DNA of 64,000 bases from an uncultured Clostridia bacterium (lineage in GTDB: Bacteria; Bacillota; Clostridia; TANB77; CAG-508), in assembly GCA_947626605.1 (NCBI GenBank), contig CANQSV010000001.1, positions 107,018-171,017 of the forward strand. Reading direction: 5' to 3'. Positions 7,834 to 51,716 of this stretch are shown here, piece after piece. Each line of letters starts with the position of its first letter. Position 1 is the first letter of the stretch. The notes beneath the pieces were generated by a model. It made no database searches. It was not told where the DNA came from and saw only the letters and a program-made list of their open reading frames with translations. A program made the translations under genes and the position numbers.

Positions 7834-7893
7834 AACTCTCTCCTCCATCGTTTGTGCAATGCTTTCGCATTGCAATTAATAATTAACTTTTTT

Positions 7894-8019: not shown

Positions 8020-8060
8020 AATATTATATTATTTTAAGCGAGCGAAAATAATATAATATT
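8020..8060. repeat. Minimal (core-less) family A palindrome, copy A4
   Basis: Perfect 16-bp inverted repeat AATATTATATTATTTT/AAAATAATATAATATT around AAGCGAGCG. Confidence 0.6.
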
Positions 8061-8083
8061 AAGGTTGGATGAATACACAAACA

Positions 8084-14279: not shown

Positions 14280-15137
14280 TTGGACAGATTTACTCAAGCA
14301 AAAAAAGTAGGTATTTTAGGCATATTAGGTAATTTATTTTTACTTATTATAAAAGGTAGCGTAGGTATTATTTTTAAAAGTCAATCTATGATTGCTGATT
14401 CTGCAAATAGTGCCAGTGATATTTTTGCTTCATTTATGGCTTATATTGGTAATAAAATTTCAAGTGAACCATCTGACGATAATCATAATTTTGGTCATGG
14501 CAAAGCTGAATACATATTTTCACTTTTCATAAGTATATCTATGATAATTCTTTCTATTAACATACTAATAACAGCAATAAAAACCTTGCTTTTTGGAAAT
14601 GATATTGAATTTTCATGGCTTTTAGTTGTAGTTTGTATCATAACAATCATACTAAAATTCGCATTATATCTCCATGCTAGAGCTATTAACAAATCATATG
14701 AAAATATTTTAGTATCTTCCACAATGAATGATCATAGAAATGATTGCTTTGTTACAATTTTTACATTAATCTCTATACTATTTAGTTTATTCAAAATATA
14801 TATTGTAGATAGTATTGTTGGAATTGGAATTTCTTTATTAATATGTTTCACTGGATTAAAAATATTTGTAGAAAGTTTCAAAGTTTTAATGGATACATCA
14901 ATAGATGAAACTTCAAAGAAAAAAATATTATCTCTTGTTAAAGAAACTGATGGTGTTAAAAATATAGATAATTTCTCATCTGTACCTGTTGGTTATCAAT
15001 ATTTTATTTTCATAACAATATGTGTTGATGGCAATATGTCAACATTTGAAAGTCATTCTTTAGCCGATAAATTAGAGGAACAAATAACAAAATTAGACAA
15101 AGTATATAAGGCTACAATACATGTTCATCCTATATAA
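14280..15137 (+). CDS. Cation diffusion facilitator transporter
   Basis: CDF signature: SMIADSANSASDIFASFM, DNHNFGHGKAEY, NDHRNDCFVT; TTG start. Confidence 0.9.
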   Translation: MDRFTQAKKVGILGILGNLFLLIIKGSVGIIFKSQSMIADSANSASDIFASFMAYIGNKISSEPSDDNHNFGHGKAEYIFSLFISISMIILSINILITAIKTLLFGNDIEFSWLLVVVCIITIILKFALYLHARAINKSYENILVSSTMNDHRNDCFVTIFTLISILFSLFKIYIVDSIVGIGISLLICFTGLKIFVESFKVLMDTSIDETSKKKILSLVKETDGVKNIDNFSSVPVGYQYFIFITICVDGNMSTFESHSLADKLEEQITKLDKVYKATIHVHPI

Positions 15138-15150
15138 GTACTACTTACAT

Positions 15151-15289
15151 GTGGATTCTATGTTTTTTCGTAGCGAGCTTGTGTGGGGACCGACGAGTTA
15201 GAAAATATAAAAGAAATGTACCGTCAGGTGCATTTCTTTTTATAGTTTCTACGAAGTTGGGACGAGCGAGAAAAAAGCATAGAATCCAC
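15151..15289 (+). repeat. Structured palindromic repeat, family A copy 1
   Basis: GTGGATTCTATG/CATAGAATCCAC outer stem; core GCGAGCTTGTGTGGGGACCGAC...GTTGGGACGAGC. Confidence 0.85.
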
Positions 15290-15319
15290 CGTAATTTTTT
15301 TCTATTCTTGTTTTATTAA

Positions 15320-15493
15320 GCCAAACTATAATAATTTTTCAAAAATGCTCGTTCAAGCAATTTTCGCAGACCTTCTAACATGCTTTTATGGCACCCTTTC
15401 ACGAACAAGCGCGAACTATTTCCATAAAACCAAGCAAGAAGGTCTAGCTCAATTACTTTCAATGCGCTTTTTTCAAAATTATTATAGTTTGGC
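15320..15493. repeat. Large palindromic element E (174 bp)
   Basis: Perfect 19-bp terminal inverted repeats GCCAAACTATAATAATTTT/AAAATTATTATAGTTTGGC plus inner stem AGACCTTCT../..AGAAGGTCT. Confidence 0.8.
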
Positions 15494-15516
15494 TTTTAGA
15501 ATAACATCCTATATAA

Positions 15517-17997
15517 TCAAGATTTTTTCTTTTTTATAACAACCTTATCATCTTCCACAGTTGCTATTGCAGTATCTTTTGTTTTTACAATTCCATCTAA
15601 AATTGCCTCTGCAATTCTGTCTTCCAACTTATTTTGTATTGTTCTTCTAAGTGGTCTTGCACCATAAGCTTTATCAATTCCTTCTTTTATTATAAGCTCT
15701 TTAACACTTTCATCTATATCTAATTTAATATCTTTTTCCTTTAATCTATTTTTTACTTCTTCTAACATTATATCAATAATTGATTTTATTTCTTCATCCT
15801 CTAATTTATGGAACACTATTATTTCATCAACACGATTTAAAAATTCTGGTCTGAAAGCTCTTTTTAATTCTGCCATAACTTCTTTTTTCGTATCTTCATA
15901 TTCTTTCTTAATGTCTTTTTCACTATCTTCTGACTTACTATTGAAGCCTAAAGTTTTCTTATCCGTTATTACTCTTGCTCCTACATTTGATGTCATTATT
16001 ATAACTGTATCTTTGAAATTTACCACTCTACCTTGTGAATCTGTTAATCTTCCATCATCTAATATTTGAAGCAATATATTCATTACATCTGGATGAGCTT
16101 TTTCTATTTCATCAAATAATATTACTGAATATGGTTTTCTTCTTACTTTTTCAGTTAATTGACCTCCTTCATCAAATCCTACATATCCAGGAGGTGATCC
16201 TATTAATTTTGATGTTGAATGTGATTCCATAAACTCAGACATGTCTACTCTTATAATTGCATTTTCATCTCCAAATAAAACTTCTGCTAATGCTTTTGAT
16301 AATTCTGTTTTACCAACACCAGTTGGACCTAAAAATATGAATGAACCTACTGGTCTTTTAGGATCTTTTAGCCCCACTCTTCCTCTTCTTATTGCCTTTG
16401 CCACAGCATCTACTGCTTCATTTTGTCCTATTACTCTTTTATGAAGAGCTTTTTCTAGATTTTTAAGTTTCTCATTCTCATTCTCACTAATTTTATTAAC
16501 TGGTATTCCAGTCCAAGAAGCAATTACTTCTGCTATCTCTTCTTCTGTTATTATAGATACAGTGGTTGTGTTTTTATCTTTCCACTTAACTTTTGATTTT
16601 TCTAATTTTTCTTTTTGTTTATGCTCTTTATCTCTTAGTTTAGCAGCCTTTTCAAAATCTTGAACCTTTATAGCCTCTTCCTTTTCTTTTTCTATCTTTT
16701 CTATATTCTCTTCTAGTACTTTGATTTCATCTGGCTCTGTGTATGTTTTCATTCTTACTCTTGATGCCGCTTCATCAATTAAATCTACTGCTTTATCTGG
16801 TAAAAATCTATCATTTATATATCTAACAGAAAAGTTTACTGCACTAGATATAGCTTCATCAGTTATCTTTACATTATGATGTGCTTCATATTTATCTCTT
16901 AAACCTTTTAATATACTAATTGTATCTTCAACTGTAGGCTCATTAACTGTTATTGGGCTAAATCTTCTTTCCAAAGCAGCATCTTTTTCAATGTATTTTC
17001 TATATTCATTAAGTGTTGTAGCTCCTATTAACTGTATCTCTCCTCTAGCTAATAATGGTTTTAAAATATTAGCCGCATCTATTGCTCCTTCTGCTGATCC
17101 AGCTCCCACTATTGTATGAATTTCATCTATAAATAAAATTACGTCTCCTGCTTTTTTTACTTCATTTAAAGCTTTCTTTATACGTTCCTCAAAATCACCT
17201 CTATATTTAGCACCAGCTACCATTCCTGATATATCTACACTTACTAGTCTTTTATTTTTTAACATTTCTGGTACATCACCCAAAACAATTTTTTCTGCTA
17301 TTCCTTCTGCAATTGCAGTTTTACCTACACCTGGTTCCCCAATTAAACATGGATTATTTTTTGTTCTTCTTGAAAGTATTTGTATTACTCTTTCTATTTC
17401 ACTTTTTCTTCCTACAATTGGATCCAACTTGCCTTCTTCTGCTTGCTTAGTTAAGTCAGAACCAAATTGGTTTAATGTTGGAGTCATATTAAAACTATTT
17501 TTTGTGTTCTTTGACTTGTTTCCGTTATTGCTGTTTATATTATTTATATCATCATCTTCATTTACCACCTTATAGATTTCATTGTATAGTTTTTGTGGAT
17601 TAACACCTAAATCTAGTAATATTCTAACTGCAACACTATCCGCTTCTCTCATTATGCCAATTAGAATATGCTCTGTTCCTATATAATCAGACCCAACTTT
17701 TCTTGCTTCTCTAAAAGCGTTTTCTATTACTCTTTTAGTTCTTGGAGTAAAACCTATAGTTTTTGAAGTTTCAGTTGTAGCTTTTCCAATCAATTCTTCT
17801 ATTTCTTCTAAAACTTCTTCTTTAGTTACATTTTGATTTTCTAATACTTTTCCAGCTACACCTTCTTGTTCATCAACTAAACCATACAAAAGATGTTCTG
17901 TTCCTATATAATCATGTCCTAGCTCTATTGCAATTTCATTTGCAGATTCCATTGCATCTTTTGCACTATTAGTAAATTTATATGTCATATTTCTCAC
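15517..17997 (-). CDS. clpC: ATP-dependent Clp protease ATPase subunit ClpC
   Basis: Clp N repeats, two AAA+ domains ([29 protein letters not shown]), UVR-like mid region. Confidence 0.95.
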
Positions 17998-26754: not shown

Positions 26755-26960
26755 ACAAAAAAGGTTGCTTAATCCTACATAGGACGAAGCAACTCGTGGT
26801 ACCACCTAATTTCATTAATTTACAAAAATTAAACTCTAATAGTTTTAACGTAACAACCGCTTTGACCTACTTTTTGTTTCTGCCAAAGGCAAAGAAAGTG
26901 AAATTTCTAATATATATACAATAATGGATTCCAGCTATTTTCCATCTCTCTAAAAATGTA
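26755..26960 (-). promoter_or_regulatory. T-box leader (Phe) of pheST
   Basis: Minus strand T-box core AGGTGGTACCACG followed by terminator GTTGCTTCGTCCTATGTAGGATTAAGCAAC-CTTTTTT; stem I landmarks AGAGAGATGG...GCTGGAATCC; likely UUC specifier. Confidence 0.9.
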
Positions 26961-27156
26961 ATTTATATATTATACTTTGCTTTCTTATTTGCTTATATCT
27001 AATTAATGCCTATATTTTACCATAAAATAATTTACATTGCAATATTCCATAATAATTTATTATAAAATTTTCTAAACTTTTCATATAGCAAAACATTTAT
27101 AATTTATATTTGATTTTTTATATTTTTAATGCTATCATATTTTCATAAATAAATAT

Positions 27157-28695: not shown

Positions 28696-29391
28696 TTATA
28701 CATCTATATTATTTATATTAAAAGCCAATATTTCTCCTTTATTTGTACTGTTTATTTCTATCTCATTATATTCTATGTATACTAGAGTATTTCGGTTAAC
28801 ATCTTTTATTTCCATTTTTGTTGGTTTTAAACTTTCTTTATCTATGTAAAGTGTCTTGTACATCATGTATTTATTACTTTCATTTTTAGTTTTAGTGCTC
28901 ATAATTATTTGCTTATCCGTTTCTTCTATATTTGATTGTTCTGATATTTTATAATCTTCAATGAAATTATATAAACAAAGTGAATTTTCTGATATGTATT
29001 CATATTGCTCAAAAATTTCATTTAAATTTAGCTTTGTATTTTCTATTCTTAAATTTTCTCCATTATATATTACTGTCAAACCTTGAATATTACTTGGTTC
29101 TATTACTTCTTGCTTAAACACATTATCTTCATTTGTATATTCCTGTTTTAAAATATATTGATTTTTATTTTTATTACTCTCGACTGTTATCTTTATTTTT
29201 GCATCATATGAACTAATATTTAAAATATAATTAGCAATTCCCTGAGTTGTTCTATCAATATTATTTCCAGGAAAAAATTTTTTATAAGCAAAAATTATAA
29301 AAAAAATTAAAGCTAAAATCATTCCAATAATCAAAACTATCTTTGGTTTACCATATTTTTCTTTTGAATGATAGCCTTTATCATTCTTCAT
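28696..29391 (-). CDS. Membrane-anchored GerS-like lipoprotein-sorting-type protein
   Basis: N-terminal TM; YDAKIKITVESNKNKNQYILKQEY...LYIDKESLKPTKMEIKD pattern. Confidence 0.6.
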   Translation of the reverse strand: MKNDKGYHSKEKYGKPKIVLIIGMILALIFFIIFAYKKFFPGNNIDRTTQGIANYILNISSYDAKIKITVESNKNKNQYILKQEYTNEDNVFKQEVIEPSNIQGLTVIYNGENLRIENTKLNLNEIFEQYEYISENSLCLYNFIEDYKISEQSNIEETDKQIIMSTKTKNESNKYMMYKTLYIDKESLKPTKMEIKDVNRNTLVYIEYNEIEINSTNKGEILAFNINNIDV

Positions 29392-29447: not shown

Positions 29448-29596
29448 GTCCTAATCTATAATTATATTATTTAAAGCGAGCTTGTGTGGGGACCGACGAG
29501 TTAGAAAATATACAAAAAATGTATCGTCAGATATATTTTTTGTATATTTTCTACGAAGTTGGGACGAGCTTAAATAATATAATTATAGATTAGGAC
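29448..29596 (+). repeat. Structured palindromic repeat, family A copy 2
   Basis: 27-bp perfect outer stem GTCCTAATCTATAATTATATTATTTAA/TTAAATAATATAATTATAGATTAGGAC around GCGAGCTTGTGTGGGGACCGAC...GTTGGGACGAGC. Confidence 0.9.
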
Positions 29597-29667: not shown

Positions 29668-30657
29668 CTATATTGATTTAAAATATTCTTTTAAGCAATT
29701 TTCTAACTCTTGTCTATCTTCAATTCTATTAATCATATCTCTTGTTTTTGTTGCATCTTTCATATTTTTTATATACCATGAAATATGCTTTCTCATTTCT
29801 CTTATTCCAGTATATTCTCCCTTTTCTTTTATTTCTAAATCTATATGTTTTAAAATAACATTTAATTTTTCCTGAGGACTAGGTTGATATTGACTTTTAT
29901 TCCCTGTTTTTAAATAGCTTATTATATTTCTAAACAACCACGGATTTCCCAAAGCACCTCGTCCACACATAATTCCATCTACACCAGTATATTCAAACAT
30001 TCTATAAGCATCTTCTTCACTAAATATATTTCCATTTCCTATAACTGGTATATTAACACTTTCCTTTACTTTTTTTATTATATCTAAATCCACTTCTCCA
30101 GAGAAAAATTCTTCTCTAGTTCTACCATGAATAATTATAGCCGACGCTCCTTTATCTTCTGCAATTCTAGCAATATCCGTAGCCACAGTATTCTTTTCAT
30201 CCCAACCCTTTCTTATTTTTACTGTGACTGGTATATCAACTGATTTAACTACATTTTCAATAATTTCTTCTGCCAATTTTAAATTAGTTAATAATTTACT
30301 TCCATCGCCATTTTTTACTACTTTAGGAGCAGGACATCCCATATTTATATCTACTATATCTGCAAAACTACTTACATATTTTGCGGCTTCCTTCATTGCA
30401 ACAACATCACTTCCAAATATTTGAACAGCTATTGGCTTTTTTTCTCCTTCTATATTTAATAGTTTTTTTGTTTTTTCATCTCCATAATAAATTGCTTTTG
30501 CACTCGCCATTTCTGTATATACTAAGCCTATTCCAAACTCTTTGCATATTATTCTAAATGGCAGGTCTGTAATACCTGCCATTGGAGCTAACATTATATT
30601 ATTTTCTAATTCGACATTTCCTATTTTTAATTTTTTTAAATACATTTCCTTCTCCAT
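29668..30657 (-). CDS. tRNA-dihydrouridine synthase (DusB-like)
   Basis: LAPMAGITDLPFR, DINMGCPAPKVVKNGDGS, IIHGRTREEF, IPVIGNGNIF, IMCGRGALGNPW. Confidence 0.93.
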   Translation of the reverse strand: MEKEMYLKKLKIGNVELENNIMLAPMAGITDLPFRIICKEFGIGLVYTEMASAKAIYYGDEKTKKLLNIEGEKKPIAVQIFGSDVVAMKEAAKYVSSFADIVDINMGCPAPKVVKNGDGSKLLTNLKLAEEIIENVVKSVDIPVTVKIRKGWDEKNTVATDIARIAEDKGASAIIIHGRTREEFFSGEVDLDIIKKVKESVNIPVIGNGNIFSEEDAYRMFEYTGVDGIMCGRGALGNPWLFRNIISYLKTGNKSQYQPSPQEKLNVILKHIDLEIKEKGEYTGIREMRKHISWYIKNMKDATKTRDMINRIEDRQELENCLKEYFKSI

Positions 30658-48513: not shown

Positions 48514-49788
48514 TTAATTATTTGTAAGGAAATATATTGTATTAATATTTATTGCATTAGCAAAATCTATTATTTCCTCTTTAGTAACATTATTAATTTT
48601 ATTCTCATATTCTTCAAAATCAACATTAGTATTAGCTAACTCCTGCCCTAAATAATATGTTATCTCTGTATCTTGTTCATCTGGAATAAATTTAATTGTA
48701 GATAAAATATTTGTCTTTGCATTTTTAATATTTTCATCAGAGAAATTCCCTTTTTTCATATCTTCTAATTGTTCTTTAATAACATTAACAGCTTTCTCAT
48801 AATTTTCTATTTCAATTCCACATTTTATAAAAATATTATTCTTAGGTTTTAAATAAACCGAACCTGCCGTATACGCTAAGCTTTCCTTTTCCCTAACATT
48901 TTGGAATAATTTAGACATTGGATTGCCACCTAATATAGAATTATATACTGATGCTATATATCTCAAATTATCTCTTTTTTTAGTTATATCTAATCCTATC
49001 ACTAATTTTCCCTGAGTTATATCCATACTTTCAGAAACCACTTCGGTATTTTCTTTATTATCTTTTTGTTCACTATCAGCATTGTTTACTAAATATTCTG
49101 GTTCTCTTTCATTTAAAAAATCTAATTGTTTTGTTATTTCTTCCTTAACATTCTCTTCTACTTGACCTGATACAAAAAAATCTATTTTACATTTAGATAT
49201 AAGATTTTTATAATATTCATATAAATCTTTTGATTGTATTTTTTCCAAACTTTCTATATCACCATATTTATATAAACCGTATGGTTTATCTTTATACATT
49301 ATTTCCACACATCTATCCATAGCATATTGTGCCTTGTTATCTTTTTTTCCTTCTATAATCTGTTTTAGATTCTCTTTTTCAGATTGAACATACTCATCAT
49401 TAAAAGAATTGTTTTCTTCTAATGGTTTAAACACAATTTCTATTAATTTTTCTATGCCTTTTTTTAATAACTCCTCTTTTTGTGGAAGAAAATCATCACT
49501 AATTGCTTCTAAATAAAATTTCATTACTTGATTATCGCCCGTTTTTTCAATACCGCAATTAAAACTTGCACCATACATTTCTTCTAATTCTTTACTGATT
49601 GCTTCTTGAGTTGGCATATTTTCAGAACCTCTTCTTAAAACTGCAGGTATTAAAGCATTCTTTGTCACATTATCTTTATTTAAAGGTGTTGTTAAAAATA
49701 CAGCTAATAAATTAGTTTTGAATTTTTCTGTATTTATAATATGCAACTTTATTCCCTTTTTTATTTCTACAACATTATGATTCATCAT
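48514..49788 (-). CDS. M16 family peptidase homologue (YmfF-like, degenerate active site)
   Basis: M16 fold, no HxxEH; adjacent to YmfH-like gene. Confidence 0.87.
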   Translation of the reverse strand: MMNHNVVEIKKGIKLHIINTEKFKTNLLAVFLTTPLNKDNVTKNALIPAVLRRGSENMPTQEAISKELEEMYGASFNCGIEKTGDNQVMKFYLEAISDDFLPQKEELLKKGIEKLIEIVFKPLEENNSFNDEYVQSEKENLKQIIEGKKDNKAQYAMDRCVEIMYKDKPYGLYKYGDIESLEKIQSKDLYEYYKNLISKCKIDFFVSGQVEENVKEEITKQLDFLNEREPEYLVNNADSEQKDNKENTEVVSESMDITQGKLVIGLDITKKRDNLRYIASVYNSILGGNPMSKLFQNVREKESLAYTAGSVYLKPKNNIFIKCGIEIENYEKAVNVIKEQLEDMKKGNFSDENIKNAKTNILSTIKFIPDEQDTEITYYLGQELANTNVDFEEYENKINNVTKEEIIDFANAININTIYFLTNN

Positions 49789-49900
49789 TACCTCCTATAA
49801 ATTTATATATATATTATAGTATAATACTTTTTGGAAAATATATACAAGAGGGAAAAAGTAATTTGTAAAATAAACATTTCTATAGTTTATTAGATTATAT

Positions 49901-50000
49901 GATTTTCTATGTTTTTTTCGTAGCGAGCTTGTGTGGGGACCGACTGCATAATGATAACATTATGCAGTTGGGACGAGCGAGAAAAAAAGCATAGAAAATC
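49901..50000 (+). repeat. Structured palindromic repeat, family A copy 3 (short inner stem)
   Basis: GATTTTCTATG/CATAGAAAATC outer stem; GCGAGCTTGTGTGGGGACCGAC-TGCATAATGATAACATTATGCA-GTTGGGACGAGC. Confidence 0.9.
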
Positions 50001-50058
50001 AAGATTATATATAAAAAAGCGAAATAGAAGACCATATCTTCTACTTCGCATTTTTAAT

Positions 50059-50324: not shown

Positions 50325-51716
50325 TTACATTGTTAGCGTTCCATTCGGTGTATCTATAATAACAAGTATATCTTGTTCCTTGCCATTTTCCGCATTTATA
50401 TATATTAGAAAATCATTTCCTTTTATTCTTCCTTTAAATTCCCAACATAACACTTCCGTTTTATACTCTGTTGGAATTATTGCTAATTTTTCACTAGAAA
50501 TTTTTAATTTATCATTTAAATTCTTTTTCGCCTCTTCCTTTGTTATTTTTGGATTTTCGATTTTTCGTTTTTCATGAGAATTTAAATATCCTGTTGTTTC
50601 CATTCCCAGAACTTCTCCACTATCTAAAGCAATTTTCAATTTTATTAAATCTGGATAAATAATAACATCATCTTGATTATAAGCATAATTCACTGTTAGT
50701 ATTCCATTTTGTTTCATATAATATGTTTCCTTCATATTATTAAAACCTTTATCTTTTAAGAAATCCAAACCTATTTTGTTAGCTTCTTCCATATTTATAA
50801 GTTCTTCGCCAATTTCTCTATTATAATTCATATACACAATATGACCACCTTTTTTAGAAATTGCCATTGATGCATAATTGTTATCATCACCATTTTTCAT
50901 CTTAATAGAAAAATTATATGATGGAATATTTCCATTTTCAGAAAAACCATTAGAATTTATTTCATCAAAATTTTCTTTTCCAAAAAAATTCTCTACTATT
51001 TTTCTTGCTTCTTCTTCACTTATATCCGAACCTGTTAATCCCTTTCTCTTTGGATTAGTTAGATGTTCCGAAAATGCACCATCATATATAAGACCCGCAT
51101 ACTCGTGAAAATTCTCTTCTATATTGCTAAAACTCTGTGAAGATAAATTACTTACTTCTTGAGCAAATGCTACATTCCCTTTTTTATCTAATTCTCCCCA
51201 ACTAATATTTCCTTCATTTATATCATTTGATAATTGATTTAATGTATTTTTTAATTCAACACTATAATCATGTAATTCTTCTAAATTCTCTAAATCTTCT
51301 TGTTTTAATTTTTCATCATTAATATTTTTATTTGCTAAAGAATAACTGTACTCACTAACTTGATTCAAAAATTTTTGTGCATTAGAAAGCCCTTCTACAT
51401 TTATAGGAAGTTGAGCTAAATATGTTGATGCTAAATTTGAATCTCTCCATACATTCATCAACGTTTCTGCTCCATGTTCTGGTGTTGTTGAAATCAAAGA
51501 TTTTGCTAAATACACCTCTACTTCCTCTATATAGTTTACCAATTCATAAAAAGCATAATTATATGCATTTTCGGAAACTTGTCTATATTGCCTTTGTTTT
51601 TTATAAATATATAATCCCATTATAGCTATAATAATTATTGCAACAATTATTATGCTTAGCATATGTCTGTCTTTTAGTCTTTCTTTCCAATCGTAAATTT
51701 TTTCTTTAACACTCAT
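50325..51716 (-). CDS. ypeB: Germination protein YpeB (PepSY domains)
   Basis: N-terminal TM, EKAYNYAFYELVNYIEEVEVYLAKSL, ISEEEARKIVENFFG; adjacent to sleB. Confidence 0.9.
   Translation of the reverse strand: MSVKEKIYDWKERLKDRHMLSIIIVAIIIIAIMGLYIYKKQRQYRQVSENAYNYAFYELVNYIEEVEVYLAKSLISTTPEHGAETLMNVWRDSNLASTYLAQLPINVEGLSNAQKFLNQVSEYSYSLANKNINDEKLKQEDLENLEELHDYSVELKNTLNQLSNDINEGNISWGELDKKGNVAFAQEVSNLSSQSFSNIEENFHEYAGLIYDGAFSEHLTNPKRKGLTGSDISEEEARKIVENFFGKENFDEINSNGFSENGNIPSYNFSIKMKNGDDNNYASMAISKKGGHIVYMNYNREIGEELINMEEANKIGLDFLKDKGFNNMKETYYMKQNGILTVNYAYNQDDVIIYPDLIKLKIALDSGEVLGMETTGYLNSHEKRKIENPKITKEEAKKNLNDKLKISSEKLAIIPTEYKTEVLCWEFKGRIKGNDFLIYINAENGKEQDILVIIDTPNGTLTM

Follow-up and report, generated by a model that had tools for sequence, protein, structure and literature searches.

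The three structured repeats in the window (the whole 64 000-nucleotide stretch of DNA from an uncultured Clostridia bacterium that was analysed here) are probably copies of a dispersed, non-coding mobile hairpin of the MITE type, belonging to one family of gut Clostridia and combining a structured core with palindromic arms kept at the DNA level. The structure is uncatalogued, very strongly covarying and abundant in gut Clostridia. Its copies are dispersed and patchily distributed, and in some lineages they have terminal repeats and putative target duplications; transposition would follow a MITE-like route. The core covaries, is strand-specific and is under constraint.

Copies in the window

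A previous sequence-only reading had proposed that three sites of the window share a core, and its limits for the first (15151–15289) are correct. The 23-base 5′ side of this core, AGCGAGCTTGTGTGGGGACCGAC, is found without mismatch at 15172–15194, 29475–29497 and 49922–49944, with 0 matches in 100 shuffles. The folding of the three copies is 8–12 s.d. better than that of shuffled sequence. The features are as follows.

15151–15289, + strand: copy 1, complete hairpin element (covariance-model match 15166–15276, 103.3 bits)
15172–15194, + strand: copy 1, 5′ side of the core, AGCGAGCTTGTGTGGGGACCGAC (exact match; P2 covariation)
15256–15269, + strand: copy 1, 3′ side of the core, with the P2 strand GTTGG (15256–15260) and the GGGACGAGC side of the internal loop (sequence, covariation)
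29448–29596, + strand: copy 2, complete hairpin element (covariance-model match 29469–29578, 105.7 bits)
49900–50001, + strand: copy 3, element with a shortened inner stem (covariance-model match 49916–49987, 59 bits)
8020–8064, + strand: relic without core, palindromic arms AATATTATATTATTTTAAGC-GAGC-GAAAATAATATAATATTAAGG (comparison with the sister genome)

Copy 1 lies between the convergent genes 14280–15137 (+) and 15517–17997 (−). The 5′ side of its core leads from the internal loop GTGTGGGGA to the P2 strand CCGAC (15190–15194), and its arms are of the proximal type TTCTATGTTTTTTCGT with the distal pairing GTGGA/TCCAC. Copy 2, flanked by genes 28696–29391 (−) and 29668–30657 (−), has arms of type ATAATTATATTATTT and distal CCTAATC/GATTAGG; its orthologue in the sister genome is L017. 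In copy 3, between genes 48514–49788 (−) and 50325–51716 (−) and orthologous to L018 of the sister genome, only 22 nt separate CCGAC from GTTGG. The outer stems had been described as locus-specific. This holds for the distal few bases only; most of the proximal arm TTCTATGTTTTTTCGT is common to copies 1 and 3. The C-G to T-A change between the apical parts of copies 1 and 2 (TACC-GTCA-GGTG versus TATC-GTCA-GATA) is present, but the GTCA loop that it closes is not conserved, the sister copies having ATCA, TTCA, GATG and others.

Where the window carries the relic, the sister genome keeps an intact element (L015). The deletion end points fall within two GAGC direct repeats, and the core was lost either by precise excision or by slippage deletion between these repeats. 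Six loci were compared in two sister genomes for empty sites: five are rearranged by other repeats, and the relic alone is clean.

A different repeat, about 178 bp long and bounded by terminal inverted repeats of 21 bp (AAGCCAAACTATAATAATTTT / AAAATTATTATAGTTTGGCTT), occupies 15318–15495, and relatives of it are inserted within the core hairpin at loci L011 and L012. Another MITE family, whose arms are rich in G+C (GGGTCGTCGGGGACGCCGACCC), is represented by its ends (TAACATCTCTAC) at 7893 and 41805 and at many loci of genomes G000 and G001; the intergenic DNA of the window genus consists of nested mosaics of several MITE families such as this one. The sole regulatory RNA that Rfam detects in the window is a T-box leader at 26777–26997 (−).

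Distribution and architecture of the element

The genome from which the window comes contains 12 copies of the core within three mismatches (0 for a reversed control pattern), and the sister genome 17. Searching this genome and its relatives with a covariance model, as had been suggested, was productive: with a model made from 18 copies, drawn from several genera, the element was detected in 109 of the 393 genomes of its family, which represent 18 of 39 genera, often in at least nine copies. Every positive genome listed from a sample of the order belongs to this family, as do all three positives among 288 genomes of the class. The named records with the element are gut metagenome Clostridia, apart from single matches in metagenome-assembled genomes labelled Bacteroidetes and Bacilli. 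None of the viral contigs searched carries the element pattern, so viral carriage is not supported. A scan of Rfam 15, also suggested earlier, gave no real match to a described family at gathering or relaxed thresholds, and no family threshold was reached.

All 81 classifiable copies are intergenic and none overlaps an open reading frame of at least 100 aa. Their orientation relative to the neighbouring genes shows no preference (24 same, 34 opposite, 14 convergent and 9 divergent).

At its outer limits the element has, in some lineages, terminal repeats; moving inwards there follow a spacer with loose pairing, the long arms of the palindrome (P1, about 20–50 bp) and a core of about 80–95 nt. 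The outermost part of the core is an asymmetric internal loop whose 5′ strand reads GTGTGGGGA and whose 3′ strand reads GGGA or GGGG. It is followed by the five base pairs of P2 (CCGAC/GTTGG and variants) and a second internal loop, in which NANNTA faces TNCGNA. The nine pairs of P3, with up to five pair types at one position, lead to a conserved U·U mismatch in TGTTA/TTACA, to P4 and to a variable apex.

Two subfamilies of the element adjoin, about 50 bp apart, at four sites (L137 4716–4967, L179 463–713, L135 4550–4802 and L159 4501–4759); in the second subfamily P2 reads CCGTTT/AAATGG in place of CCGAC/GTTGG, which adds one more paired change. Loci L277–L292, L045 and L140, from several genera, have one more conserved internal loop, located outside P1, in which AGCGCGA faces GGGAGCGA.

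Constraint on the core and behaviour of the arms

The strongest covariation was obtained with alignment A4, which comprises 59 distinct copies found by the model with no exact-sequence pattern. Its covariation score is 0.577 compared with 0.168 after shuffling, a value that none of 500 shuffles reaches; 93.9 per cent of its cells pair, and sliding the register never gives more than 0.110. The scores of alignments A2 and A3 are 0.367 and 0.518 (0.142 shuffled in both cases), A3 having been gathered with an exact pattern spanning P2, so that its P2 counts are biased and not independent. The pairing CCGAC/GTTGG noticed in the window is thus upheld by covariation in A2 and A4. The adjoining helix GCTTGT/ACGAGC, predicted in the same fold, is not: across genera it scores 0.130 compared with 0.157 for shuffled alignments, and one of its pairs does not form in 11 out of 18 sequences.

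The inner helices also indicate which strand is functional. The third P2 pair in A4 is G-U in 35 copies and A-U in 18, and G-U outnumbers A-C by 40:5 in P2, 8:1 in P3 and 13:5 in P4. Since a G-U pair on the + strand would be an A-C clash on the other, this excess identifies the + strand as written as the functional single strand and sets the orientation of the core as given here. On these sequence patterns the core most likely works as a folded RNA or, less likely, as single-stranded DNA; both are compatible with the data because single-stranded DNA also tolerates G-T. Between orthologues (16 comparisons), 2.5 per cent of core sites differ, compared with 4.1 per cent in the arms and 8.1 per cent in the flanks; these figures are supportive only, as badly aligned indels raise the flank value and some of the pairs are not independent of each other. 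The sequence-only reading favoured a selected structure, in RNA or single-stranded DNA, over a plain terminator, and named as outcomes against it a lack of further copies, a lack of covariation and a match to a described family. What was found is many further copies, strong covariation and no described family.

The long arms follow another pattern. They contain 22 G-T and 23 A-C mismatches, and this equality, with no strand asymmetry, argues that no single-strand function maintains their pairing. Nine copies in genome G199 have arms of about 50 bp that differ in sequence and are placed between the core and a conserved outer end, TAGARAAAG; in eight of the nine, the two arms are nearly perfectly complementary. 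Comparison of these arms with the rest of that genome gave no convincing match, only a few diverged element-like ones, which speaks against the idea that the variable arms serve as guides towards other loci. An origin of the arms by insertion into pre-existing palindromes was considered because the distal arms differ at each locus and flanks in genome G358 are inverted. It is disfavoured in G199, where the variable arm, lying between TAGARAAAG and the core and alignable between copies, belongs to the element; such an insertion is possible for some copies.

When the flanks of all fetched copies were compared, the core was found inverted at five independent orthologous loci (L007/L025; L039 and L057 versus L056; L055/L200; L061/L167; L111 versus L162 and L184). 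At L061/L167 the core alone is turned, with arms and flanks in place. The turned unit extends to the outer repeats at L111, and the nearest flank or arm sequence differs at L007/L025 and L055/L200; independent insertions, instead of inversion in place, could also account for these three.

Polymerase template switching between inverted repeats has two described products, arm homogenization and spacer inversion (PMC8604942), and hairpin stems can be maintained through it (PMC8794818). It may be what flips the core. The orthologues L048 and L164 differ by a paired arm change, A-T to C-G. In total, arm differences between orthologues comprise 21 one-sided and 3 paired changes; since most are one-sided, the correction of arms appears to be occasional and partly offset by decay. 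Paired changes in the outer stems had been taken as evidence of selection, a use that does not survive the lack of strand asymmetry in the arms and the inversion of cores in place. From these sequence comparisons we conclude that the outer stems are mainly a DNA phenomenon, probably due to template switching, and that only the core reports on a selected structure.

Probable mobility, alternative explanations and known systems

Terminal inverted repeats were identified in several lineages: GTTACAATTCACAGC at L142, L163 and in G358, AATTGTAATTTGTC in G031 and G080, and GTAGAGATGTTA in part of the window genus. They were not seen at every copy and differ by lineage, so the outer boundary of the element is not uniform. 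Direct repeats of 8 bp flank L142 (ATTATTTT) and L163 (AAAATTTT), and TA flanks the AATTGTAATTTGTC ends in G031, at most of its copies, and in G080; the flanks of L223 and L241 in G358 are inverted, not direct. Near-identical copies occur within genomes G031 and G038.

The main rival explanation, which we consider unlikely, is that a single-strand transposase (HUH, Y1; for example TnpA of IS200/IS605 or a RAYT) recognizes the core as its site. The hairpin would be read as single-stranded DNA, and the GAGC/GARC on both sides would be cleavage sites. Strand-specific folding fits single-stranded DNA as well as RNA, the relic at 8020–8064 resembles a precise join at GAGC, and Y1_Tnp (PF01797) genes are common, occurring in 245 of the 393 family genomes in short forms and forms of about 256–303 aa. 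Their presence is only slightly higher in genomes with the element (77 of 109) than in those without (168 of 284). A comparison of the lists by hand leaves 32 of the 109 element-bearing genomes with no PF01797 match; they include G031 and G023, which are 98–99% complete and have at least 12 copies each, recent and near-identical ones in the case of G031. This speaks against a Y1 transposase as a necessary partner. Slippage deletion between direct repeats explains the relic equally well, and a GTAG tag is present in only 12 of 95 copies and a CGTC tag in none of the 95. A DDE_3 (IS630-type) transposase is not supported as the mobilizer either, this domain being found in only one of 12 element genomes tested. 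The Y1_Tnp proteins of about 256–303 aa have weaker scores and a RAYT-like size, and are common beside the short IS200 type.

The remaining explanations have a much lower probability. It is very improbable that the core is conserved only through recent spread, as the hitch-hiking interior of a MITE devoid of function. High copy numbers, the near-identical copies of G031 and G038 and the nested, repeat-rich intergenic regions would suit this, but the unpaired residues are fixed across 18 genera and several terminal-repeat types while P4 varies strongly and P3 accepts as many as five pair types, and the excess of G-U over A-C needs a strand-specific constraint. We regard as equally improbable a phase-variable switch, or inverton, in which a recombinase flips the core and changes the expression of a neighbour. 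A segment flanked by inverted repeats does occur in both orientations at orthologous loci; the arms, however, are private to each copy, so that beyond the bases next to the core no recombination site is shared, the target genes are not consistent, and template switching requires no enzyme. Least probable, by a little, is a cis-regulatory RNA or an attenuator/terminator of neighbouring genes. The very stable folds, the intergenic position and the location of L048 and L050 just upstream of start codons would agree with it, but each site has different genes and a U-tract is absent where a terminator needs one; the random orientation and the flipping of the core in place, seen at orthologous sites, make such a role unlikely.

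Several known systems resemble the element in part. The bcr1-type repeats of the Bacillus cereus group are mobile, of roughly similar size and have a predicted RNA structure. Their hosts differ from those of the element, with which they are set side by side here by description. The element was also compared with the integron attC motif (GTTRRRY / RYYYAAC), a candidate that was rejected: in nearly all copies the 3′ core is GTTGGG with A or G after it, and a pyrimidine follows in at most three of 95. Bacterial MITEs of the Correia/NEMIS, ERIC, RUP and QMITE2 type are, like the element, short, non-coding, AT-rich, intergenic, dispersed and hairpin-forming (PMC10969869, PMC2229807). The terminal repeats of some lineages add to the likeness, as may their putative target duplications. 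The element differs from them in that its interior, not its ends, is conserved and covarying across 18 genera, its terminal repeats vary by lineage, its arms are private and its core undergoes inversion. The REP elements that go with RAYT transposases (GTAG/CGTC repeats, PMC3733652) are likewise extragenic palindromes with a conserved asymmetric foot and many copies per genome, but they measure 20–40 bp, whereas the element measures about 110–300 bp (about 100 at its shortest), has no consistent GTAG or CGTC tag and does not depend on a Y1 transposase for its presence. The invertons of gut bacteria (PMC11892184) also present a segment between inverted repeats in both orientations, as the element does between species at its five orthologous loci; the element differs from them by arms not shared between loci, by the apparent lack of a linked promoter or recombinase and by a core that is a covarying hairpin.

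Under the preferred explanation, a mobile hairpin of the MITE type, copies would spread by inserting into intergenic DNA as short, transposon-like units. The core, once transcribed, would act as a folded RNA that, read from the + strand, would form the internal loop (U)GUGGGGA / GGGA(G), P2 CCGAC/GUUGG, the second loop, P3, the U·U mismatch and P4. The pairing of the arms would be kept mainly at the DNA level, by template switching during replication, in which one arm serves as template for the other and the core is occasionally inverted at its site. The core may turn read-through transcripts into a defined, processed or protein-bound RNA, and in this way make insertions near genes tolerated or support the spread of the element. 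We also entertain, more tentatively, the idea that the core represents a structured RNA of a new class, perhaps with catalytic or protein-binding activity, that several unrelated MITE-like elements carry as cargo and that is flipped by arm-driven template switching.

The element is a natural test bed for the question of why, in a mobile repeat with changing ends, the folded interior stays conserved. It is also one for the share of ‘compensatory’ stems that is due to template switching of DNA rather than to selection on RNA: both kinds of helix stand side by side in one element, and strand asymmetry tells them apart.
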